The position numbers were made by a program, and so were the translations under genes. A DNA stretch of 64,000 nucleotides from Paenibacillus sp. W2I17. Lineage in GTDB: Bacteria > Bacillota > Bacilli > Paenibacillales > Paenibacillaceae. Every line of letters starts with the position of its first letter. Position 1 is the stretch's first letter. Of this stretch, positions 29,105 through 57,324 are shown piece after piece. The notes under the pieces are model-generated. The model searched no databases. It saw only the letters and a list, made by a program, of their open reading frames with translations, and was not told the origin of the DNA. Location: contig NZ_JAUSXM010000001.1 of the NCBI RefSeq assembly GCF_030815985.1, positions 3,100,001 to 3,164,000 of the forward strand, written 5' to 3'.

Positions 29105-29291
29105 AAATACCACCCTATCCTCTTTTTTTTTAGTTTGATAAAAGTTGAACCAGGGCATCTAACCCGTCCTCACGTCATACCTTCGACGATTAACGTCTAA
29201 GGTTCATTGAACCCACAGCATGACCGAGTGCCTACAGTGATAAAGGTGCAGTAGACATTACCTGTTTACTTGGGAGCATTGGATGGAAGGT
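29105..29291 (-). ncRNA. Structured RNA leader in the EPS operon, EAR (epsC motif) candidate
   Basis: The 187-base space between the BY-kinase stop and galU is large for this otherwise overlapping operon. On the transcribed strand it carries a hairpin ACCTT-A-GACG-TTAAT-CGTC-G-AAGGT (29178-29202) that shares bases with an alternative GGTTC-AAT-GAACC hairpin (29200-29212), so the two are mutually exclusive. A further CTAC/GTAG pair and the GGGTTCAA segment indicate more structure. In B. subtilis the processive antitermination RNA EAR lies at the same relative position, right after the epsB kinase gene. Identity to EAR is inferred from position, size and structure, not from a consensus match. 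Confidence 0.5.
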
Positions 29292-46251: not shown

Positions 46252-46319
46252 CACAAACACCCGTTCCCATGCAATATTGTGCAAATCAGATCAACGATAT
46301 CAATTGAACTAAAGAATAC

Positions 46320-46468
46320 TTACACTTACAACTTCGATGACAGAACAACCTTCCGATCACTGTTATTCCCAGATTTTTTTAATTCACTTTTATAAAGGTG
46401 AAAATCTGTGAATAAAGGCGAACGCTCCGCTTCTTCAGGTTATTTCTGTCCTCTACGTTCTAGTGTAA
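46320..46468 (+). repeat. 149-nt structured palindromic repeat, copy A
   Basis: The element is bounded by TTACACT (46320-46326) and AGTGTAA (46462-46468). Inside, ACAGAAC-AACC pairs with GGTTATTTCTGT, and the core hairpin TTATTC-CCAGATTTT (46363-46377) pairs with AAAATCTG-T-GAATAA (46401-46415). The apical stem is TTCAC/GTGAA. The conserved 3' segment AAAGGCGAACGCTCCGCTTC follows. Three further copies (B-D) share the core and conserved segment. Confidence 0.8.
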
Positions 46469-46498
46469 ACGGTTAGTTCAAAGGATATGTAAGCAATA

Positions 46499-46543
46499 AA
46501 AAAATCTACCTCTGGAAATTTCCCTAGAGGTAGATTTTTTTGT
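46499..46543. terminator. Bidirectional terminator after the TRM11-like gene
   Basis: AAAAAATCTACCTCT pairs with AGAGGTAGATTTTTT around GGAAATTTCC, giving A and T tracts on both sides. It separates convergent genes. Confidence 0.88.
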
Positions 46544-46552
46544 TTTTTACGC

Positions 46553-47530
46553 TTACATACACAGCCAAATATGACGTATAAACGTGCCTTTGTGTACTGT
46601 TCGGTACTCTTTTACCGTCCATCCCGCTTCCAACAAGTGCTCTTCTACCCACTCTGTGGAAACAATCACCGCCCGTTTTGCCAATCTGCGCAAACTCCCC
46701 AGCATGGCTCGTTGCTCAGCATCCGGAAGTACAGAGCAGAGGTTATAGGGCATGTCCAGAATTGCTGCATCATACAAATCTTGCAGTTCATTCATATCCC
46801 CCAGTGTGATTCGATCTGAATCATATCCATAATGCGGCAAATTGATTCGCGCACCTCGGACAGCCAGCGGATTGAGATCGTTACCTTTTGCATCAATTCC
46901 CATGGATAAAGCCTCAATCACAACCGTTCCCATACCACAGCATGGATCAAGCAAGCGATGACTTTCTACTCTCGGAACGGCAATATTAACCAGCGCTCTG
47001 GCGAGCATGATGCCAAATCCAGTTGAGTAATTTTGCGGCTTCTGCCGGTGAATCTGCCATGATCGATCCACTTCTGTCCACTGGCCCAAGATCCATTTTT
47101 CTCCTGTTCGGATTAGGCCGAAAGTCACCTTAGGTTGTTTCATCTGTGCCTTGCCCTTAATGCACATGCCGATTTCTTTTTCCAGTTGACGAGACTGTGC
47201 ATAATCAGGGGGTTGATCCCCTTCTTTCAGACAAATCACCTTAAATGTCTCTTCTGGCAACAGCTGGATCTCTTTGGCAAGAGGAAGCAGATCAGTCACG
47301 CTGCCCCCTTCGCCGATCACGTCCAGTCTGCCATGGATAAAAGGACTGCGTCCAGGTGAAATACATCGTTCGGACCACACATACGACCCCATATCCATAC
47401 GGATCTCCGAACTCGGTTCAAGCAGCGTATTCAGCTCCAGCATGCATAATTCTTGCTCGTTCTCGTGGCAAGCAAAGGTGTAGAGGTGTTTCCCAGAAGT
47501 AGCGTAAATACCAAGTGTTTCATCAGGCAA
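46553..47530 (-). CDS. TRM11-like SAM-dependent RNA methyltransferase
   Basis: The 325-residue protein has an N-terminal THUMP-like region (~1-160), then a Rossmann methyltransferase: RLLDPCCGMGTVVIEALSMGIDAKGNDLNPLAVRGARINL (motifs I-II) and AAILDMPYNL (motif IV, D-x-P-Y). Archaeal and bacterial relatives methylate tRNA guanosine N2, e.g. at position 10. The translation start may be TTG 47530, 4-5 bases after GAGGGGG. The gene is convergent with the hydroxyacid dehydrogenase. Substrate is inferred from family only. Confidence 0.83.
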   Translation of the reverse strand: MPDETLGIYATSGKHLYTFACHENEQELCMLELNTLLEPSSEIRMDMGSYVWSERCISPGRSPFIHGRLDVIGEGGSVTDLLPLAKEIQLLPEETFKVICLKEGDQPPDYAQSRQLEKEIGMCIKGKAQMKQPKVTFGLIRTGEKWILGQWTEVDRSWQIHRQKPQNYSTGFGIMLARALVNIAVPRVESHRLLDPCCGMGTVVIEALSMGIDAKGNDLNPLAVRGARINLPHYGYDSDRITLGDMNELQDLYDAAILDMPYNLCSVLPDAEQRAMLGSLRRLAKRAVIVSTEWVEEHLLEAGWTVKEYRTVHKGTFIRHIWLCM

Positions 47531-47872
47531 AATCCCCCTCTCCTTCCTTCATTAATCATGTTTCTTCTATATAAATAGTAAGCTCATTGAAGACATATCA
47601 AATACGACTCATACGTTTGCTTTCAGGTAGTCATTGTATACAATGTTAAGCTCCTAGACAACTATCTATTTCCTTGCACGTATCTATTTGGAAAGAAAAA
47701 AAATAAGGTGTTCCCATTGTTTAGGAACGCCTTACTTTATTTTGAGATTATAACATTGGAAACCTAATCATTCTTGCCAGCAAACGTTATAGGCCAACAG
47801 CTCATATATCATACTGATTTCTCACCAATTGCCGCCTGCGTGATTCCAGCTTCTTCTATTATAAGAAGAAGG
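47531..47872. other. Intergenic region upstream of the TRM11-like gene
   Basis: This 342-base region contains a perfect 14-bp palindrome CATTGTATACAATG (47632-47645), the hairpin at 47704-47734 and a second weak hairpin just after the chemoreceptor stop (47850-47871). The palindrome could be an operator for the methyltransferase gene. Nothing else was recognised. Confidence 0.45.
47704..47734. terminator. Bidirectional-looking terminator downstream of the chemoreceptor
   Basis: TAAGGTGTTCC (47704-47714) pairs with GGAACGCCTTA (47724-47734) with one G-T-type position; A tract upstream and T tract downstream. It lies ~140 bases after the chemoreceptor stop. Confidence 0.75.
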
Positions 47873-49585
47873 TTATATTTTTAATTTTTCAATGGATGTA
47901 AGCAAATCTTCCGATAATTCTTTCAGACTTTGAATGCTGCCGCTAATCGTCTCCATGGAACTTACCTGTTCTTCCGCCGATGCAGAAACTTCTTCCACAC
48001 TCGCTGCCGATTGTTCCGAAACAGCGGAAATCTGCTGACTGAAATCATTCATTCTTCCGCTTGCTTCCTGCATGCCTGCCAGTCCATCTGTCATAGTACT
48101 GATGACACCAACCATGCCTTCCACCGATTCATTAATTGTACGGAAGAGTTGACCTGAAGTAAGCACATGTTCCTGACCCAGTTCGGTCTCCTGAACGTTC
48201 GTACGTAATTCCGCAACCACCCCTTGTGACTCCTGCTGAATATCCTCGGTAATCGCCGTGATCTCTTCAACCGAAGTCTGCACAGCCTCAGATAACTTCC
48301 GCACTTCTGATGCCACTACGGCGAATCCGCGTCCACTCTCTCCCGCACGTGCTGCCTCAATGGAGGCATTCAATGCCAGCAGATTGGTTTGGCGTGCAAT
48401 GTCATGAATGACCTGAACCAGCTTGGAAATATCTTCATTTTTACGATTCAACCGTTCCATTTTGTTCATGGAAGCCGAGACCGAACCGGAAATCTGTTGC
48501 ATCTGCTGCACGGACTGTTCCATCGCCTTGCGACCATTCAACCCTTGCTCCAGTACAAGATCCGACATGACGCGCAGTTGGCTGCCTTGTTCCGTATGAT
48601 TTTGAATGTGATCATTCAACACTTCAACCGTACGGGCTGATTCCACGGCTGTCTCTGCCTGGCTCTCCGCGGCCTTGGCTGACTCTTCCATGGTCACAGC
48701 AATCTGGCGACTACCAATCTTAACCTCTTCTGAGGATATTGCCAGTTCCCCACTTTGCAGATTGACAGCTTCCGCAATTCGTCTGACGCTCAGAACCATG
48801 GAAGTCAGGTTACCTTTCATGTCATTCACCGCTTTGGCCAGAACACCAACTTCATCCTCATGTTTGGTATGTATGTCCTGAACATTCAATTGGCCTTCTG
48901 CAATCAGTTTCACCGCACTAATGACACGTAGCAGTGGTTTCACGACCTGTGAACGAATAATCGGAATGCTGATCGCTGTAATGGCAATCATCACAAGAAC
49001 ACCGATAATGATGATTAATCTACCATCCTGTACCGATCTGATCGTTTGGGCCGCCGCAAGATTGGATTGTTCCTGATTGTATTCCACAAGATAATCGAGA
49101 TCGACTTGCATGGTGTCAAAGGAATCAGCACCTTTATCAGCTACTTCCTTCGCCAGCTGTGTCTGACCCTCATCACTCAGCTTGATCGATTGCGTATTAA
49201 TCTTGAGATACGCTTCCCATTTGTTCTTGAACGCGGCCCAGTGTTCGAGCTCATCCGCAGACTTCTCCTGCTGATCATAGATTTTAATCGCCTGCGTCGT
49301 TTCACGAATATACTTGGTACGCTCTTCTGACAAGAATGCCTTGTCTGTTTCTTCCGCGTCAAAGTGACGATAACTTAGTGACAGGACATGCTCTGTGGTA
49401 TAATTTAAACGGTTAATTTGCTGGATTGATGGCATCCAATTGTTCGTAATTTCATTAGTGTTGGTTTCAATTGAATTCATCCGGGTGACAATCGTGACAC
49501 TCAAAATAATTAAACAGAGGATTAACAAGTAGAACGCGATGCTGATACGCAGACCGATACTCTTGATCTTGAATCTGCTGAACAT
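47873..49585 (-). CDS. Methyl-accepting chemotaxis protein
   Basis: The 570-residue receptor has a first transmembrane helix (~10-31), a four-helix-bundle-type external domain (~32-187), a second helix (~188-208), a HAMP domain (~210-262, with [28 protein letters not shown]) and the cytoplasmic signalling domain with the CheA/CheW-binding hairpin [35 protein letters not shown]. The likely methylation helices flank it. Ligand unknown. ATG 49585 follows a GGGGG-type RBS. Monocistronic. Confidence 0.95.
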
Positions 49586-49777
49586 ATGATTTCCCCCTTG
49601 ACCTCTTCGGTCATCCCGAATTCAGGTGCTTATGTCATTGTTTTCCCTTCTTTTGACCTCTTGTCAAAAGAACTTCTCTATATTATATCGATAGGAAAAT
49701 AGACGTAAAGTATTATAACATTATTTTGTCATTAAGATGCTTGATTTTGTAAAAGATTGTTGAATCTTGACAAAGTC

Positions 49778-49832
49778 CAAACCGAAGAGCTGCAGCATAC
49801 GGTAAAGTCCCGATCTGCAGCTCTTCGGTTTG
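49778..49832. terminator. Perfect 18-bp hairpin downstream of the LLM oxidoreductase
   Basis: CAAACCGAAGAGCTGCAG (49778-49795) pairs without mismatch with CTGCAGCTCTTCGGTTTG (49815-49832). The U tract is poor, but the position, 38 bases after the oxidoreductase stop, fits a terminator. Confidence 0.7.
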
Positions 49833-49869
49833 TTCGGATTTCAACGGCTACCGTCATAAAGCGATCAGC

Positions 49870-50886
49870 CTAGTTCAGTATTGCTGTCACATGCTCAGCC
49901 AGCAATCGATATGAATCCAATCTGCGTTCATAATCTGGTCCTGCCGTAACCAGAAGCAACCTTTCCGTATCCAGCCTGCGACTCACCTGTTGCAATCGCG
50001 CCCATACCTGCTCAGGTGTACCTGCATAGTGCCGTACCGATTCATTTTGATCACTAACGGCCTCATCATTCGGATTAGAGACCGCGATACCACTTGAATT
50101 CGGCTCGGTTGAACGTTCTTTTCCATCCAGTTTGCGTCTCTCCGCCATGTTAAGACTCCAGCCCAAAGCATCCGTCTCTGACTCGGCACACAATACGCTG
50201 ACTGCCACCATTACCTCAGGCTCCTTCATCGTTGCACTAGGAATAAATCCTTCTCGGTATCGCCTTACAGCCTCTGTACCATCGGCATCACTCATGAATT
50301 GACCAAAGACATATCCCATGCCAAACCGTGCCGCAAATTCTGCACTCTTCACGTTAGTTCCCAGCATCCAGAGTGATAACGGAAGCTTGGGAATCGGACG
50401 AGCTGTCACGGGATGATCCTCGTACATGTAGCGGTCTTCGAGCAGTTCTGTGAGTGCCGCGAGCGATTCAGGCAGCTTGGACACATGCTGCAAGTAATTG
50501 CCACTGAGTGCCATCGTGGCATGAGGTCCACCGCCAGGAGCACGTCCGAGCCCAAGCTCAATGCGCCCTGGATAGAGCGCAGCCAGCAGGCGGAACGACT
50601 CCGCAACCTTGAGTGGGCTATAATGCGGCAACAAGACCGCACCAGAGCCAAGTTGGATCGTTGTTGTCCTTGCTCCGATGTGCGATAACAGTACTTCGGG
50701 AGAGGCCGATGCCAGTTCAGCCATATCATGATGCTCTGATGTCCAGTATCGGGCGTATCCCCAAGCCTCGGCATGTTGCGCAAGTGTCACCGATTGTTGA
50801 AGTGCCTGTTCCGCTGTGGCATCGTTTAACCTTGGCACAAGGTCAAGTACGCCCAGACTGAACGTCTCACTCATTCGCTTAGCCAC
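49870..50886 (-). CDS. LLM class flavin-dependent oxidoreductase
   Basis: This ~338-residue TIM-barrel protein has the luciferase-like monooxygenase pattern: LGVLDLVPRLNDATAEQALQQSVTLAQHAE, AEAWGYARYWTSEHHDMAELASASPEVLLSHIGARTTTIQLGSGAVLLPHYSPLKVAE, LYPGRIELGLGRAPGG. It probably uses FMNH2 or F420-like cofactor; Gram-positive relatives are mostly FMN-linked. The start is uncertain: an ATG at 50895 abuts AAAGGGAG, while a GTG at 50886 has 9-base spacing. Substrate unknown. Confidence 0.88.
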   Translation of the reverse strand: MAKRMSETFSLGVLDLVPRLNDATAEQALQQSVTLAQHAEAWGYARYWTSEHHDMAELASASPEVLLSHIGARTTTIQLGSGAVLLPHYSPLKVAESFRLLAALYPGRIELGLGRAPGGGPHATMALSGNYLQHVSKLPESLAALTELLEDRYMYEDHPVTARPIPKLPLSLWMLGTNVKSAEFAARFGMGYVFGQFMSDADGTEAVRRYREGFIPSATMKEPEVMVAVSVLCAESETDALGWSLNMAERRKLDGKERSTEPNSSGIAVSNPNDEAVSDQNESVRHYAGTPEQVWARLQQVSRRLDTERLLLVTAGPDYERRLDSYRLLAEHVTAILN

Positions 50887-50916
50887 GCGTCTCATCTCCC
50901 TTTATATCGGTTAGTT

Positions 50917-52332
50917 TTAATCCAGATCGTAGATGGAACCCACCTTCAGACCGTATAGTTCATTATATATTTTCTCGGCAAATGCATCCGTCATTCCTGC
51001 GATGTAATCGATCACCATGTGTTCCCAAGTCCAGATCGGCTGGGCTTTGGCTTGATCCTTCTCATACCGCTGCAGCCAGTCGGATGGAATAATGGATTTG
51101 GACGTTTCCGGATCGAGGAATGCATCCCATAATCGCTTAATCATCCACTCACTGCGCTTCTGTAGCCGCTGTACACGTAGATCACGAATCATGGTCACCC
51201 AGGCAAAACTCTTGAGCACACTCACCGTACGCAGCATATCAAGGTCTTCAGCCCCTTCACGGACAAAAGTTACCTTCTTCCAGTCGCCGTCGTCAATAAC
51301 GCCCAGGCTGCCTACAAAAAAGCTCACCCAATAGGCTTTCACTTCACGACGGGTACGCGAGTAATCATGCTCGCAGAACGGCATCTTCTCATTCCAGATG
51401 CGCAGGAACGAAGCGAGGACCTCTTCTACCTTTTGTCCAATCGCTTCTCGGGTCCATCCGTTCCAGAACAGATCCTCCAGCGTTGTAATTTTATCCACAA
51501 TCAGTCGATTCACATGCGGATCTTGCAGGAAATGCTCATGTACTTCAATTTTGCCTGCTTTGATGCCATCCTCCAGGTCATGTGAGGAGTACGCAATATC
51601 GTCGCAAAGGTCCATCAACTGTGCTTCCAGCGTCTTCTTGCCTGCCGGCACGTTCCAGCGATCACGGATCTCCCGAATATATTGCCACTCATGATGATAC
51701 ATGCCTTTTTTGCTCTCTGTCCCAGGGTACGGATATTTGTTGATTCCTAGTAATACCGCATCAGACAGGTTCAGTCCGTCGATATCTTCACGTTTCTCCA
51801 AGTGCATAATGAGACGGAAGTTGTGCGCATTGCCTTCAAAATGCTCGTATTTCCGTTTTAACTCAGCACGTACTTCAGACTCGACCTTGGGAACTTTGGC
51901 GCTGCGGCTTTTTTTCATGATTTTCTTAGCCTCGGTGTTGATGAGGTCATCCAGAATACCATCTAATACTTCCTCACCTTTATGTCCAAACGGCGGGTGA
52001 CCAAAATCATGTGCGATTGCAGCGCACTCCACCACTTCTGAATCAATAATAAGGCCGGGGTTATCCGCGCGGTCCCAGTCTACCTCAGGAAAACGGCGAA
52101 TCAGACTTCGGGCAGCCTCTCGTGCAATCTGTGCCACCTCCAGGGAATGGGTCAAGCGAGTACGATAATAATCACCCGTCCCTGCGCCAAACACCTGCGA
52201 TTTGCCCTGTAACCGACGGAAGGTCGGTGAATGAATGAGTCTCGAATAGTCCCGTTCATACGCTGCACGAGATCCATCCAATTTGGTTAATTCAGGATAT
52301 TGTCTATGTTCTCTCAGATCGTTCCATTGCAT
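50917..52332 (-). CDS. dgt: Deoxyguanosinetriphosphate triphosphohydrolase (dGTPase)
   Basis: The ~471-residue HD-domain enzyme hydrolyses dGTP (or dNTPs) to deoxynucleoside and triphosphate. It has the YERDYSRLIHSPTFRRLQGKSQVF motif, His62 in RTRLTHSLEVAQIAREA and the HD pair His108-Asp109 in AAIAHDFGHPPFGHKGE, then helical C-terminal regions ending MTDAFAEKIYNELYGLKVGSIYDL. I chose ATG 52332, which follows TAGGAG, over the open frame to 52422. Gene spacing suggests monocistronic expression. Confidence 0.94.
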   Translation of the reverse strand: MQWNDLREHRQYPELTKLDGSRAAYERDYSRLIHSPTFRRLQGKSQVFGAGTGDYYRTRLTHSLEVAQIAREAARSLIRRFPEVDWDRADNPGLIIDSEVVECAAIAHDFGHPPFGHKGEEVLDGILDDLINTEAKKIMKKSRSAKVPKVESEVRAELKRKYEHFEGNAHNFRLIMHLEKREDIDGLNLSDAVLLGINKYPYPGTESKKGMYHHEWQYIREIRDRWNVPAGKKTLEAQLMDLCDDIAYSSHDLEDGIKAGKIEVHEHFLQDPHVNRLIVDKITTLEDLFWNGWTREAIGQKVEEVLASFLRIWNEKMPFCEHDYSRTRREVKAYWVSFFVGSLGVIDDGDWKKVTFVREGAEDLDMLRTVSVLKSFAWVTMIRDLRVQRLQKRSEWMIKRLWDAFLDPETSKSIIPSDWLQRYEKDQAKAQPIWTWEHMVIDYIAGMTDAFAEKIYNELYGLKVGSIYDLD

Positions 52333-52577
52333 GGGGATCACTCCTAGCCGACTGTCTCTATTTTGAGTGATTATACACAACATCTGTGGTTTCGAAAAGT
52401 AAAACCTGTCTGCGATTGTCATCTCTTCTTACATCAACTTGTAATGAACAGTCATCTTCTCTTATTATACCCTGCCAGACTATCATCCGTGCATCTAAAT
52501 AACAATGATTCATATTGAACTCATTATTCACATATGCTCGCCCCCATAGCAGAACAACCATAAGTACTCACTGTGCC

Positions 52578-52726
52578 ACCAGATGGCCGTTCCGGTTACG
52601 GATCGCTCTTATGATCGCTGTTGTCTCCAGGTTTTCTGAATTCCCTTTACTAGGGAAAAACCCGGAGACAAAGGCGAACGCTTCGCTTCTTCAGAATCTA
52701 TTCCGTCCCCTTCACTACTTTTGCTG
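52578..52726 (+). repeat. 149-nt structured palindromic repeat, copy B
   Basis: Copy B aligns with copy C without gaps. Its core hairpin TTGTCTCC-A-GGTTTT (52621-52635) pairs with AAAACC-C-GGAGACAA (52657-52671); the apical stem is TTCCC/GGGAA. An outer ACGGA/TCCGT pair lies at the position of ACAGAA/TTCTGT in copy A. GGCGAACGCTTCGCTTCTTC and CACTACTTTTGC are conserved. The element lies between two minus-strand genes, so it is read antisense in any transcript. Confidence 0.8.
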
Positions 52727-52869
52727 TCCTTTAAATACAATAATGGTATTCATCATTCAGCTCGCTAAAATCAAGTGAAAATCAAGTTCAATTTAGAAAA
52801 TATCATCATTTGATTCAATGATAGTCTGTCTCCCCCGCGCCCTACCCGTTGTGGGTAAAAACAAAAAAA

Positions 52870-52896
52870 CCGACAGGACTGAAACGCCCTGTCGGG
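52870..52896 (-). terminator. Terminator of htpG
   Basis: CCGACAGG (52870-52877) pairs with CCTGTCGG (52888-52895). On the minus strand it is followed by about seven U. It begins 25 bases after the htpG stop. Confidence 0.85.
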
Positions 52897-52920
52897 GTGG
52901 AGATGGTGGGTGTAACGGTA

Positions 52921-54801
52921 TTACACCATCACCTTACAGATATCGTTGGTGAACTCTACTGGATCTTGAATTGGCAATCCTTCGATTAACAATGCTTGGT
53001 GGTACAGGAGGCTAGTGTAGAGGTTCAGCTTTTCCTGATCCTGTGCGAAAGCGTCTTTCAACGATTTGAAGACATCGTGATTCACGTTGATTTCTAGCAC
53101 TTTGTCGGCTTGTACGTTTTCGCTGTTCGGCATAGCTTTCAAGATTTTCTCCATTTCAATCGTCAGCTCACCTTCGGTGGACAAACATACCGGGTGGCTT
53201 CTGAGACGTTTGGAAGCTTTAACCGCTTTGACTTTACCCGCTAATTGAGCTTGCATCGCTTCAAACAACTCTTTGTTGTCGTTGTCCTGTGCGTTCGTTT
53301 CTTCTTTGTCTGCGCTATCTTCGATGCCCAGGTCACCACTGGAGATGGATTTGAATTCTTTCTCCTTGTAGTTCGTGATCATCTTGATTGCGAACTCGTC
53401 GATGTCATCGGTAAAGTACAATACTTCGTACCCTTTCTCAAGAACACCCTCGATCTGCGGCAGCTTCTCAATACGGCTAATGGACTCACCAGATGCATAG
53501 TAGATGTACTTCTGATCTTCCGGCATTCTGGAGACGTATTCGTCCAGGCTCACGAGTTTGCTCTCTTTGGAAGACGTGAACAACAGCAGATCCTGCAATG
53601 TATCCTTATTCACACCATAGTCGCTGTATACACCATATTTCAATTGACGACCAAACGCTTGGTAGAACTTCTCGTAGTTCTCACGCTCGTCCTTCAGCAG
53701 GCTTTGCAGTTGACTCTTGATTTTGTTCTTAATGTTCTTCGCGATCAGGCTAAGCTGACGGTCATGTTGCAACATCTCACGAGAGATGTTTAGGGAAAGA
53801 TCTTCGGAATCCACCATACCTTTAACAAATCCAAAGTAATCTGGCAACAGATCCCCGCATTTATCCATGATCAATACACCGTTGGAGTAGAGTTCAAGGC
53901 CTTTTTCATACTCTTTGGTGTAGTAGTCAAACGGCGTGTTCTCCGGGATAAACAGGATTGCATTGTATACCACTGCGCCATCTGCGCTGATGTGCAAGTG
54001 TTTGAGCGGTTTGTCAAAACCGTAGCGTTTTTCCATATAGAAGTTATTGTAGTCTTCTTCGGTCAACTCGCTTTTATTTTTACGCCAGATCGGCACCATG
54101 CTGTTCACGGTTTGTTCTTCTTGGTATTCCTCGAACTCGTTCTCCGTGCCCTCTTTCGGACGTTGACCCGTTACATCCATCTTGATCGGGTAGCGAATGA
54201 AGTCGGAGTATTTCTTGATGATGGATCTCAGGCGGTACTCTTCCAAAAATTCGTCATACGAATCTTCTTCGGTATTTTCTTTGATCGTCAGGACGATCTC
54301 TGTACCTACGGAATCTTTTTCAGCTGGTGTGATTGTGTAACCATCCGCGCCTTCGGACTCCCATTTCCAAGCCTCGTCGCTGCCCAGCGTTTTACTCGTT
54401 ACGGTCAGCTTGTCCGCCACCATGAATGCCGAGTAGAAACCAACCCCGAATTGTCCAATGATGTTGTGGCCGTCTTTAGCCTCATTTTCCTTCTTGAACG
54501 CCAGGGAACCACTCTTCGCGATAACCCCCAGATTATTCTCTAGCTCTTCCTGCGTCATACCAATACCGGTATCTGTCAGTGTGAGCGTGCGGTTTTCTTT
54601 GTCAATCGTAAGCTTGATGAAGTAGTCCTCTTTGTTGAAAACGAGCGCATCGTCCGTAAGTGCTCTGTAATAAATTTTATCAATGGCGTCACTGGAGTTG
54701 GAGATCAATTCTCTCAAAAAGATTTCTCTTTGGGTGTAAATGGAGTTGATCATCATATCCAGCAAACGTTTGGATTCTGCCTGGAATTCTTTTTTAGCCA
54801 T
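52921..54801 (-). CDS. htpG: Chaperone HtpG (Hsp90)
   Basis: The 626-residue Hsp90 family ATPase shows all N-terminal ATP-site motifs ([56 protein letters not shown]), a middle domain with [11 protein letters not shown] and a C-terminal dimerisation domain. ATG 54801 is used; the frame starts earlier at TTG 54822 but that contains the AAAGGAG ribosome binding site. Upstream, a sigma-A-like promoter is overlapped by a perfect CIRCE element (55305-55331), suggesting HrcA repression rather than the class III control of B. subtilis htpG. Confidence 0.97.
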
Positions 54802-54970
54802 GAATGGTTGGACTCCTTTCAAATTGGATATCGAATGATTTGATTAAAATAGAAAGTAAATCCTTGAGTTTTCCATGCAAAACATACGGGTGCCAGAAAA
54901 TCATTCGAAGCTTAAACGCTTGATCATCATATCCAATAGATTGGCTAATCTTCAAAATGTATGACGTTCT

Positions 54971-55119
54971 GCAATGTAGCCGTTCCGGTTACGAATCGTT
55001 TTTCGGATCGCTGTTATCCCCGTATTTCTTTGATTCCCTTTTTAAAAGGGAGAAATCCGGCGATAAAGGCGAACGCTCTGCTTCCTACAAATCGATTTCG
55101 TCCCCTGCACTACTTTTGC
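54971..55119 (+). repeat. 149-nt structured palindromic repeat, copy C
   Basis: Ends GCAA-T-GTAG (54971-54979) and CTAC-TT-TTGC (55110-55119) are complementary. The core hairpin TTATC-C-CCG-T-ATTTC (55014-55028) pairs with GAAAT-C-CGG-C-GATAA (55052-55066), with apical CCCTTTTTAAAAGGG. Next to it an ACGAA/TTCGT pair is kept. It lies in the long 5' untranslated region of htpG, antisense to it. Confidence 0.8.
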
Positions 55120-55304
55120 ATTTGATCAGGAACTTATTTAAGGATTAGAGCCTTCTATTAAAATGGATTCTGTTGATTAAGCAAACATTTCGCTTCTTCC
55201 GGTTCTGTTGCATACCTTGGCTTCGCATGTCCTACTCAGGTTCAATATCTATTTTCGAAAACAGAATCATTCCATATGTAGTCGTGTAGTAAAAACATCA
55301 TCTG

Positions 55305-55331
55305 TTAGCACTCTAATGATCGGAGTGCTAA
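55305..55331. promoter_or_regulatory. CIRCE element (HrcA operator)
   Basis: TTAGCACTC (55305-55313), nine bases, GAGTGCTAA (55323-55331): a perfect match to the CIRCE consensus used by HrcA. It lies immediately downstream of a minus-strand promoter pointing at htpG, about 500 bases from its start codon. No other gene is close enough to be the target. Confidence 0.9.
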
Positions 55332-55343
55332 ACCCTTCCTTTT

Positions 55344-55372
55344 ATATAACATATGGGAAAATTGGGTGTCAA
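55344..55372 (-). promoter_or_regulatory. Sigma-A promoter for htpG
   Basis: On the minus strand: -35 TTGACA (55372-55367), 17-base spacer, -10 TTATAT (55349-55344). The predicted start near 55337 is directly before the CIRCE element. This gives htpG a leader of about 530 bases. Confidence 0.7.
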
Positions 55373-55466
55373 TACGTAGGCGGTTATTTTAACTAAAAGA
55401 TCAAATAACTCTTTAACTTTTGCACATTACCAATTATTTTAACGTAATCCCGCGGGTAAAACAAAA

Positions 55467-55494
55467 GCCGCCTCGAACCAAAGTTCGAACCGGC
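55467..55494 (-). terminator. Hairpin terminator, possibly of the ABC importer operon
   Basis: GCCG..CGAAC-CAAA-GTTCG..CGGC forms an interrupted stem; on the minus strand U-rich sequence follows (TTTTGTTTT). It is the first such hairpin after the permease gene and would lie between that operon and the htpG promoter. It also contains the palindrome CGAAC-N4-GTTCG (55474-55487). Confidence 0.55.
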
Positions 55495-55663
55495 ATGGGG
55501 AAAGATTGTGATGTGTCTGTGCTTTAGTAGATAGCGTTAAAACATATCCATCTAATGTACCTTGGAGTATCCTCGGCCTTACTGTGTTGAGACTGATGTA
55601 TTAGCATGTTCGCATGTTGGTATTGTGGTTGCTTGAATGTCTTGAGCAGCATGACAGTCATGC

Positions 55664-55858
55664 GCTAACGAATCTCAGAGGCGTTATTTAGCCTTTTTGG
55701 GATGACTTCATAAACTAAGAATCGTAATCACGCTATTTCTCGACTTTAGCCAACCTTTTGAGACTTTCCGCAGGTTTTCGCAAAATAGCGCGTGTGAGGT
55801 TCGTTAGAATGGGGAATTGAGTGGAAATCGTAAAATAAGGTCTCCCGAGTTCGTTAGA
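55664..55858. repeat. Inverted/direct repeat group around TTCGTTAGA
   Basis: GCTAACGAATCTCAGAGGCG...TATTTAG (55664-55691) is the imperfect reverse complement of AAAATAGCGCGTGTGAGGTTCGTTAGA (55782-55808). The latter recurs in direct orientation, 50 bases on, as AAAATAAGGTCTCCCGAGTTCGTTAGA (55832-55858). The group spans about 195 bases, has no coding capacity, and resembles an intergenic repeat family. Confidence 0.6.
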
Positions 55859-56005
55859 GTTGAAGCAAATGTTGGCGTTACAGCTTCAGATAGGATTGTG
55901 ATAATAATTAGTGCTTACGGTTAGTGTTAACGTTAGCTTTGGCACGCATGCTGCGTTACAGAAGAAGTTAGGCTTGCAGAGCTAGAGTTTCAAATCAAAG
56001 TTGCA

Positions 56006-56187
56006 GTTTGAGTTCGAGCTTGGGTTACAAGTTACGGTTACGGTTACGGTTACGGTTACGGTTACGGTTACGGTTACGGTTACGGTTACGGTTACGGTTA
56101 CGGTTACGGTTACGGTTACGGTTACGGTTACGGTTTGAGTTTGAGTTTGAGTTTGAGTTTGAGTTTGAGTTTGAGTTTGAGTTTTGA
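56006..56187. repeat. Two abutting hexanucleotide arrays, (GTTACG)17 and (GTTTGA)8
   Basis: Seventeen perfect GTTACG units (56031-56132) are followed in register by eight perfect GTTTGA units (56133-56180) and one 7-base GTTTTGA. Degenerate units GTTTGA, GTTCGA, GCTTGG, GTTACA precede (56006-56029). The array ends six bases before the permease stop codon (56193-56195), so it is in the 3' untranslated region of the importer operon. The array gives VT or TQ dipeptide repeats in one minus-strand frame, but this is not supported as a gene. Confidence 0.92.
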
Positions 56188-56192
56188 TAATT

Positions 56193-57092
56193 CTACTTTT
56201 TCGCCATTTTAGGATCAAGGGTGTCACGCAGGCCATCGCCCATTAGGTTGAAGCCGAGAACGGTCAACATAATGGAAACGCCGGGGAAGATCAGTGTCCA
56301 CGGTGCTTTTTGTATAAACTGACGGGAGTCTGACAGCATTTTACCCCATTCGGGATCGGGTGGTTGTGCGCCCATGCCTAGAAATCCGAGCGCAGCAGCT
56401 TCGATGATCGCAGTCCCAATTCCAAGTGTACCCTGCACAATCAGCGGAGTAAGGCTGTTGGGCAAGATGTGGCGAAACAAGATTCGCCCATTGCCCGCTC
56501 CAAGTGTCCGTGCCGACGTAATGAATTCCTCCTGTCTCAAGCTGAGTACCCGTGAACGCACCAATCTTCCGTAGGTCGGGATGTTCACGATGGCGATGGC
56601 GAGCAGTGCATTTTGCAACGACGGGCCCAATATCGCCACAATGGCGATGGCTAGCAAAATCCCCGGAAAGGCGAGCAAGATATCAAATAGACGCGAGATA
56701 AGCATGTCCGCCCATTTTCCATAAAATCCGGCAATCAGACCAAGCAGCGTACCCGCAATAATGGAACCAATGACGGAGAAAAAGCCCACCCACAAGGAAA
56801 TACGCGCCCCATGCAGCACTCTGGAAAACACGTCACGCCCCAGATCATCAGTACCAAACCAATGCTCTGCCGAAGGGGCCTGAAGCCGATCCACCAGCAC
56901 CTGTTCCTTGTAATCGTAAGGTGCGATGTATGGCGCGAGGAAGGCCAACAGGATAAAAAATACGATAATAATCAGACCTGCAAGCGCAAGCCGATTTCTC
57001 CGAAACGTTCTCCACGCTTCCCGCCATGGACCGGATGTGCTCGCCGACGCAGCGTCAATGGATGGTCCGGTATTGGTCGATAATTTGGCCAT
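56193..57092 (-). CDS. ABC importer permease, DppC/OppC type
   Basis: The 299-residue membrane protein has six helices and an N-terminal extension (OppC_N, FRRNRLALAGLIIIVFFILLAFLAPYIAPYD), EQVLVDRLQAPSAEHWFGTDDLGRDVFSRVLHGARISLWVG, and the EAA-type cytosolic loop YGRLVRSRVLSLRQEEFITSARTLGAGNGRILFRHILPNSL contacting the ATPase. ATG 57092 follows AAAGGAG. It is the last gene of the operon; the hexamer array starts at its stop. Confidence 0.93.
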   Translation of the reverse strand: MAKLSTNTGPSIDAASASTSGPWREAWRTFRRNRLALAGLIIIVFFILLAFLAPYIAPYDYKEQVLVDRLQAPSAEHWFGTDDLGRDVFSRVLHGARISLWVGFFSVIGSIIAGTLLGLIAGFYGKWADMLISRLFDILLAFPGILLAIAIVAILGPSLQNALLAIAIVNIPTYGRLVRSRVLSLRQEEFITSARTLGAGNGRILFRHILPNSLTPLIVQGTLGIGTAIIEAAALGFLGMGAQPPDPEWGKMLSDSRQFIQKAPWTLIFPGVSIMLTVLGFNLMGDGLRDTLDPKMAKK

Positions 57093-57144
57093 GCGGTGTC
57101 TCCTTTCTTGGATATGAATATAACAAAAGATCAGCGCGTTCTAT

Positions 57145-57294
57145 TACACTCAAGCACTACGATTGGCAGTATCATCTTCTGATTGCTGTTATCCCCCAGA
57201 TTATATTGATCCACCTATTTAAAGGTGAAAATCCGGTGATACATGCACAGCCTATGCTTCCGATGTAGCTTTCTTTTAGAAAGCTTTTAGCTTC
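57145..57294 (+). repeat. 149-nt-type palindromic repeat, copy D (degenerate)
   Basis: The core TTATC-CCCC-AGATT (57189-57202) pairs with AATCCGGTGATA (57230-57241), with apical CACCT/AGGTG, and starts with TTACACT like copy A. The conserved GGCGAACGC segment is degraded and the 3' end is unclear. It lies in the 232-base gap between the two permease genes, so it sits inside the operon transcript. Confidence 0.6.
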
Positions 57295-57324
57295 GATTCT
57301 GCAGATTGGTTCTTGATGGAGTTC

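Follow-up and report, generated by a model that had tools for sequence, protein, structure and literature searches.

What are the long palindromes that recur four times within a 64,000-nucleotide stretch of the Paenibacillus sp. W2I17 genome (contig NZ_JAUSXM010000001.1, positions 3,100,001 to 3,164,000; hereafter the window), and why do their paired bases change together? The original prediction, made from the letters alone, described a non-coding unit of 149 nucleotides (nt) and offered three readings: a structured RNA or mobile element resembling repetitive extragenic palindromic (REP) sequences, a mobile miniature inverted-repeat transposable element (MITE) with degenerate ends, or an mRNA-processing signal. 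Our analysis places the element among MITEs of the IS630 type, a known kind. We consider it likely that this IS630-moved MITE carries an older folded core that works mainly as RNA in the messages of neighbouring genes. The novel aspects are a family that extends across much of the order, a covarying core with one favoured strand, and the lack of a match in Rfam 15.

Architecture, mobility and spread of the element

The 149-nt unit is the inner part of a short-form element of ~188 bp, while a long form of ~227 bp, present among the relatives and in the window as copy D, adds a hairpin module of ~39 nt. When 30 copies were aligned with their flanks, conservation continued beyond the originally predicted ends into inverted repeats, TATAAGTTGAACTAAA...TTTAGTTCAACTTATA. 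The end pattern CTATATAAGTTGAACTAAA gave 126 matches at up to three mismatches, compared with 3 for a reversed-pattern control, and the 44 copies with both ends at this threshold fall into two length groups between their terminal inverted repeats (TIRs), 183-192 and 216-234 bp. At up to four mismatches, both ends were recognised in 59 of 150 copies, one end in 35 and neither in 56.

The copy number of four was a large underestimate. A first model, R1, was built from 33 sequences (30 A-type copies, including copy A itself, plus copies B, C and D), and it identified at least 150 copies in the genome, all full-length and with E ≤ 2.2e-13 (150/150 scored; 2677 first-look candidates; the count of 150 is a lower bound). 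In a nucleotide search with copy A, the best 40 of 203 candidates all aligned along most or the whole of the query. R2, a second model that represents the core alone and was built without copy D but with copy A in its alignment, found no copy in eight further 20-kb stretches of the genome, which had been picked where no match was listed. Among the 150 copies, 22 overlap open reading frames (ORFs) of at least 80 amino acids in mechanical calls. Two C-type copies at 6677557-6677705 and 6677739-6677887 of the W2I17 assembly (G000) lie 182 bp apart with closely similar sequence and a common flank, and are apparently a tandem duplication. Internal-deletion derivatives that keep the ends were also observed, with lengths of 43 bp (L070:2006-2048), 100 bp (L061:6695-6794), 105 bp (L072:6976-7080) and 129 bp (L072:8651-8779).

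Filled and empty sites were compared between at least 120 stretches from other genomes (80 titles listed, all Paenibacillus) and 2.3 Mb of the W2I17 genome; the empty sites examined are from Paenibacillus only. This yielded 55 gap pairs, 32 of them with element-like sequence. Three of the 32 comparisons show a clean duplication of TA, with TA on both sides when filled and a single TA when empty: L233/L135 and L085/L269 at CTAG, and a second L233/L135 site at CTAA. Two more are nearly clean, L150/L207 with a substitution beside the site and L100/L282 with a fitting left side. One "empty" site (L227/L194) instead holds an ends-only derivative, reflecting internal loss of the palindrome. Among the 44 copies of the W2I17 genome with both ends at up to three mismatches, 29 have TA on both flanks. 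A preference of IS630 for CTAG is reportedly the subject of a 1991 title by Tenzen and Ohtsubo.

The DDE_3 transposase domain (PF13358) is present in 21 of 75 genomes of the genus, W2I17 being one of the 75 but not of the 21. In 5 of 30 DDE_3 loci of sister species (L322, L327, L342, L343 and L344, from four genomes), the same ends as in our element enclose the transposase; these ends lie ~1.16 kb apart and are flanked by CTA...TAG in all five. The L343 transposase gene consists of two frames of 165 and 176 amino acids, both of which match IS630-family models (NCBIfam). The element is thus short, multi-copy and without a transposase gene, has terminal inverted repeats and duplicates TA at empty sites. 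Because inverted ends and TA duplication come together with an IS630-family insertion sequence (IS) that has the same ends in sister genomes, we identify it as a MITE, in agreement with the second of the three original readings. Judging from these sequence features, an IS630 (Tc1/mariner-type) transposase probably mobilised it in trans.

To analyze its distribution, we searched genomes at increasing phylogenetic distance with R1, W2I17 being included each time. Every genome of the genus matched (75 of 75, E ≤ 1e-10). At the level of the family (E ≤ 1e-6), 93 of 118 genomes matched, representing 13 of 19 genera; at the level of the order (E ≤ 1e-4), 77 of 119 genomes matched, representing 17 of 34 genera and including three further families. 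The match numbers per genome in these searches are lower bounds. A class-wide sample searched with R2 gave matches in 27 of 299 genomes, all in the family of Paenibacillus, and none in the other 272; searches above 40 genomes used stricter filters at which weak matches are lost, and 252 of the 272 match-free genomes are not listed by kinship. Eight other genera carry 27 to 117 copies per genome. A single copy was found in one f4 genome and in each of three closely related g30 genomes, where it occupies the same place (L445, L446 and L448, from G218, G235 and G221); at L445, its neighbours are what we take to be a ROK-like kinase gene and an alpha-L-fucosidase-like gene. The ends themselves vary between groups: the g2 consensus is close to the TATAAGTTGAAC type, and the g9 ends differ, with no target duplication that could be fixed. 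The core therefore appears to be older than the ends and to outlast changes of ends.

Phage and plasmid records gave no match to copy A. In IMG/VR, 30 stretches of predicted viral contigs bear the motif (L471-L500), and R2 recognises the element in 21 of them; the carriers are perhaps prophages or mis-bounded host DNA.

The covarying fold and its favoured strand

The compensatory base changes described in the original prediction hold up in a much larger alignment, which combined 116 of the 150 W2I17 copies (long forms left out) with 89 copies from other genera, nine genera in all. After thinning at 93% identity, 203 of 205 rows and 198 of 359 columns were used. RNAalifold returned an empty structure on alignments of 266 and 166 rows, and covariation was therefore assessed with a custom script resembling R-scape, in which substitutions are reshuffled on the tree (60 null sets, extrapolated tail). 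Under this tree-aware null, 17 of ~18,900 column pairs covary significantly (E < 0.05). In each of the 17, Watson-Crick combinations make up most of the cells (67-100%). The pairs are all nested with respect to one another and are distributed over an outer helix, a second helix, a short junction helix, an inner stem and a two-pair mini-hairpin. Among 30 cross-genus copies, 21 of 27 pairs contain double changes, with 94 such cells compared with 18.0 (standard deviation 3.4) in shuffles. In the same copies, 96% of the cells are paired, compared with 38-54% when the structure is slid along the alignment, a comparison that favours the structure since it was derived from the same sequences.

The fold also contains conserved parts that are not paired in the standard way. 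Between the inner stem and the junction lie near-fixed 2x2 non-canonical positions, T66.G122 in 187 and G67.A121 in 198 of 203 copies, and in the loop and at the junction the sequence motifs themselves are shared by different genera. The claim that selection acts on the fold and not on the sequence is supported by the tree-aware covariation, although these motifs show conservation of sequence as well and arm-to-arm copying may contribute to the covariation. The element had no match in Rfam 15 at gathering score in the whole window; when part of the window and five other-genus loci were searched at a low threshold, every hit fell far short of the curated scores. Three outcomes that would have refuted the original prediction, a lack of further copies, non-significant covariation and a match to an Rfam family, were thus not observed.

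The helices distinguish the two strands. On the strand as originally read, their cells hold 238 A.C and 66 G.T combinations, or 136 and 66 without the dominating column pair. Since A.C on one strand corresponds to G.U on the other, the wobble-tolerating strand is the opposite one, which we term R. Folded as RNA, R is the better strand in 105 of 116 W2I17 copies and in 73 of 89 copies from other genera. Its structure is a long hairpin with interruptions, which comprises the 2x2 internal loop described above, a junction and a GC(GNA)GC mini-hairpin. R is co-directional with the genes at 88 of 102 tandem sites of the W2I17 genome and, at other Paenibacillus loci, at 59 of 71 such sites. These gene contexts come from crude ORF calls, with no usable neighbour for 5 of 150 W2I17 copies, 4 of 96 copies at Paenibacillus loci and 11 of 89 other-genus copies. 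A simple reading for Paenibacillus is that the strand opposite to R has a long T run after the stem that would hurt read-through, and that insertions in this orientation would be purged.

The four window copies and their surroundings

All four repeats lie where they were originally placed, and all are written on the plus strand. R1 matches 46320-46468, 52578-52725, 54971-55120 and 57144-57295 with 169.9, 121.7, 123 and 80.4 bits, scores that hold by construction because all four copies are in the R1 alignment. Independently of the models, a plain search with copy C recovers copy B (78% identity, E 1e-25); independently of R1, R2 recovers copy D (32.5 bits, E 7e-7). The remaining R1 and R2 matches in the window are weaker, on the minus strand and mostly echoes of the palindrome.

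Copy A is a whole short-form element that runs from ~46297 to 46488, well beyond the ends assigned to it at first. Its 16-nt terminal arms, 88% complementary, were placed by end pattern and flank alignment: the left TIR at 46297-46312 (plus strand) is a degenerate TATAAGTTGAACTAAA, and the right TIR occupies 46473-46488 (minus strand). The conserved core at 46346-46445 scores 97.5 bits with R2 (E 3e-25; copy A is in the R2 alignment). Copies B (52578-52726, core 52604-52701, 93.5 bits with R2) and C (54971-55119, core 54997-55096, 86 bits with R2) belong to older subfamilies without TATAAGTTGAAC ends. Copy D (57145-57294, core 57172-57269) contains the extra ~39-nt hairpin module, so that its 3' half does not align over the 149 nt originally assigned. 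The folding of copy A is clearly better than that of its shuffles (z -4.5; 0 of 200 as good), and that of copy C is less clear (z -1.95; 8 of 200).

Copy A lies between convergent genes, copy B between a dGTPase-like gene and htpG, copy C directly upstream of htpG (52921-54822, minus strand), and copy D between two minus-strand permease genes for ABC transporters of the dipeptide/nickel type. Strand R is the minus strand in all four copies, which for B and C is also the direction of htpG and for D that of the permease genes.

Three other features were observed in the window. Directly adjoining copy A, between the convergent genes, 46489-46550 holds a terminator-like inverted repeat of 25 nt (88%) accompanied by runs of T and of A. 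Two pure hexamer microsatellites, GTTACG x17.5 and GTTTGA x8.7, lie at 56031-56184, just past the 3' end of the permease gene at 56193-57092 (minus strand), and could be a contingency locus. A full-length epsC RNA (RF01735, 106 bits), cis-regulatory by its Rfam label, is located at 29152-29263 on the minus strand.

Mechanism, alternatives and meaning

We then propose a model for the movement and the role of the element. An IS630-family transposase encoded elsewhere would recognise the TATAAGTTGAAC... ends and insert the element at TA, preferably within CTAG, whereby the TA is duplicated. The ends, the duplication, the CTAG target and the sister IS are read directly from the genomes, and from them we infer that such a transposase moved these copies. 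The interior would be an older domain that survives replacement of the ends. Its R-strand fold would act mainly as RNA within neighbouring messages, as part of a leader, an operon spacer or a tail, where it may serve as a processing or stability element and also make insertions tolerable to the host. Covariation, the strand bias of wobble pairs and the spread through much of the order are observed for the core; the RNA role is the part that we infer. Since wobble pairs favour R, R follows gene direction in Paenibacillus and copies lie in leaders and operon gaps, a role at the RNA level in the host message is the most likely one on sequence grounds.

However, several observations weigh against this model. 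On the side of mobility, 27 of the 32 filled/empty comparisons are diverged, internally deleted or unreadable, the 56 copies mentioned above lack any recognisable end, and the sequence common to the MITE and the IS comprises, by eye, only about the terminal 18 bp. No DDE_3 match was found in the W2I17 genome, which places movement there in the past or makes it dependent on a donor. On the side of RNA, the overall scarcity of wobble pairs is atypical of RNA. Folding with DNA parameters favours the same strand (R is better in 115 of 116 W2I17 copies and 73 of 89 other-genus copies), and folding therefore does not separate RNA from DNA. In other genera there is no co-direction with genes (23 vs 22 tandem sites, or 20 vs 23 under another ORF rule). 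Moreover, with replichores inferred from GC skew, 118 of 150 copies carry R in the leading-sense orientation, a proportion close to that of the genes (0.78), and this bias is not cleanly separable from transcription.

Simple causes of the orientation were considered and rejected. Neither replication direction alone nor gene direction alone fits the counts, which are 5 with genes vs 6 with replication for tandem genes on the lagging strand and 25 vs 18 at convergent or divergent sites. Orientation is not a general property of the element either, given the lack of bias in other genera.

Could the covariation instead stem from a purely selfish palindrome, in which template switching from arm to arm (quasi-palindrome correction) keeps the stem paired without selection on a fold? 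Such copying is favoured by the pattern of change, with 94 double changes and only 1 one-sided standard change among 804 cells (31 unpaired), and by the internal-deletion derivatives, which show that the palindrome is unstable. However, copying is expected to erase both the non-canonical positions and the one-sided mini-hairpin, and both persist across genera. These features speak against copying as the whole cause, as do the conserved loop and junction motifs and the wobble asymmetry, which selects one strand. We therefore consider a purely selfish palindrome unlikely, while arm-to-arm copying may be the source of part of the covariation. A similarly low probability is given to a fold that acts as single-stranded DNA (ssDNA) on the lagging-strand template, either in replication-coupled transposition or as a protein-binding hairpin. 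The leading-sense position of R, which is the lagging-strand template, and the DNA-parameter folding point in this direction. G.T is also better than A.C in DNA hairpins, and the GC(GNA)GC motif resembles the unusually stable d(GCGAAGC) mini-hairpin. In contrast, the replichore bias does not exceed the strand bias of the genes themselves, and it shrinks to the 25 vs 18 given above where the flanking genes are convergent or divergent.

A host origin of the core, as a cis-regulatory RNA of leader or riboswitch-like type that MITEs took up and spread, seems more doubtful still. Covarying conservation over half of the sampled genera of the order would suit such an RNA, and so would the three g30 genomes, in which the only copy found has the same place and surroundings; but these genomes are close relatives with flanks ~97% identical, and the copy may be simply inherited. 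Dozens to at least 150 copies per genome, and the 21 of 89 other-genus copies at convergent sites, are difficult to reconcile with it. A REP-like element moved by a REP-associated tyrosine transposase (RAYT/Y1, IS200/IS605-type) would likewise be small, palindromic, mostly intergenic and strand-preferring. For the TIR-bearing subfamily this reading, one of those offered at the outset, is contradicted by the TA duplication, by 16-19-bp inverted ends in common with the IS630 element and by CTAG targeting, all of IS630 type (no search for REP transposases was made), and we regard it as very improbable. We thus retain the IS630-moved MITE with a core that probably acts as RNA.

Comparison with known elements, by description only, places the Paenibacillus element in familiar company. 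Bacterial MITEs are mostly TA-bounded, folded and under 200 bp, and RUP with IS630-Spn1 is presented as the exception with a proposed IS partner (PMC2229807). Like our element, RUP of Streptococcus pneumoniae is small and non-coding, with IS630-like inverted ends, terminal TA and a folded transcript (PMC2229807; PMC3049150), but it is a pneumococcal repeat of ~107 bp, whereas ours has ~188- and 227-bp forms and an order-wide core. The orientation of BOX, RUP and SPRITE follows the coding-strand bias at ~61-63%, and these elements are enriched in the intervals between convergent genes (PMC3049150). ERIC, found in E. coli and other enterobacteria, is likewise a MITE bounded by TA; it has inverted ends, and its transcript forms a long stem-loop. 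Correia/NEMIS of Neisseria is TA-bounded and has short (~107 bp) and long (~155 bp) forms that differ by an internal insert, and RNase III processing of its transcript has been proposed. The hosts of both differ from ours, and the review cited reports no cognate IS for either (PMC2229807). The bcr1 repeat of the Bacillus cereus group, from the same class, is similar in its ~150 bp, dozens of copies and conserved stem-loop, but it is TTTAT-associated and confined to that group (PMC2267715; PMC6542083). Duplication of a TA target, an IS630-family trait, is shared with IS630/ISY100 (Tc1/mariner; PMC2170065), which is autonomous, whereas our element lacks a transposase gene. Among the literature matches listed, none describes a Paenibacillus MITE or structured repeat of this sort, ISfinder and most subscription papers being outside the scope of the search.

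IS630-type bacterial MITEs are therefore already known, and the wide spread of TA-bounded ERIC means that a wide host range is not unique to the Paenibacillus element. What distinguishes it is a strand-preferring, covarying fold that persists, despite changing ends, in half of the genera sampled from the order. It is tempting to speculate that the core represents an unrecognised class of structured nucleic acid, RNA or ssDNA and so far limited to the order, that is passed between MITE families with different ends and transposases because its fold has a function; we put this forward as a tentative possibility. If true, the fold itself would keep the host tolerant, process the host message or aid the spread of the element. 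Covariance models would allow many copies without an Rfam match to be annotated, and effects on neighbouring messages could be measured in the W2I17 genome, where at least 150 copies occur naturally at varied positions and in either orientation. The question of why bacterial MITEs carry conserved folds thereby becomes testable.

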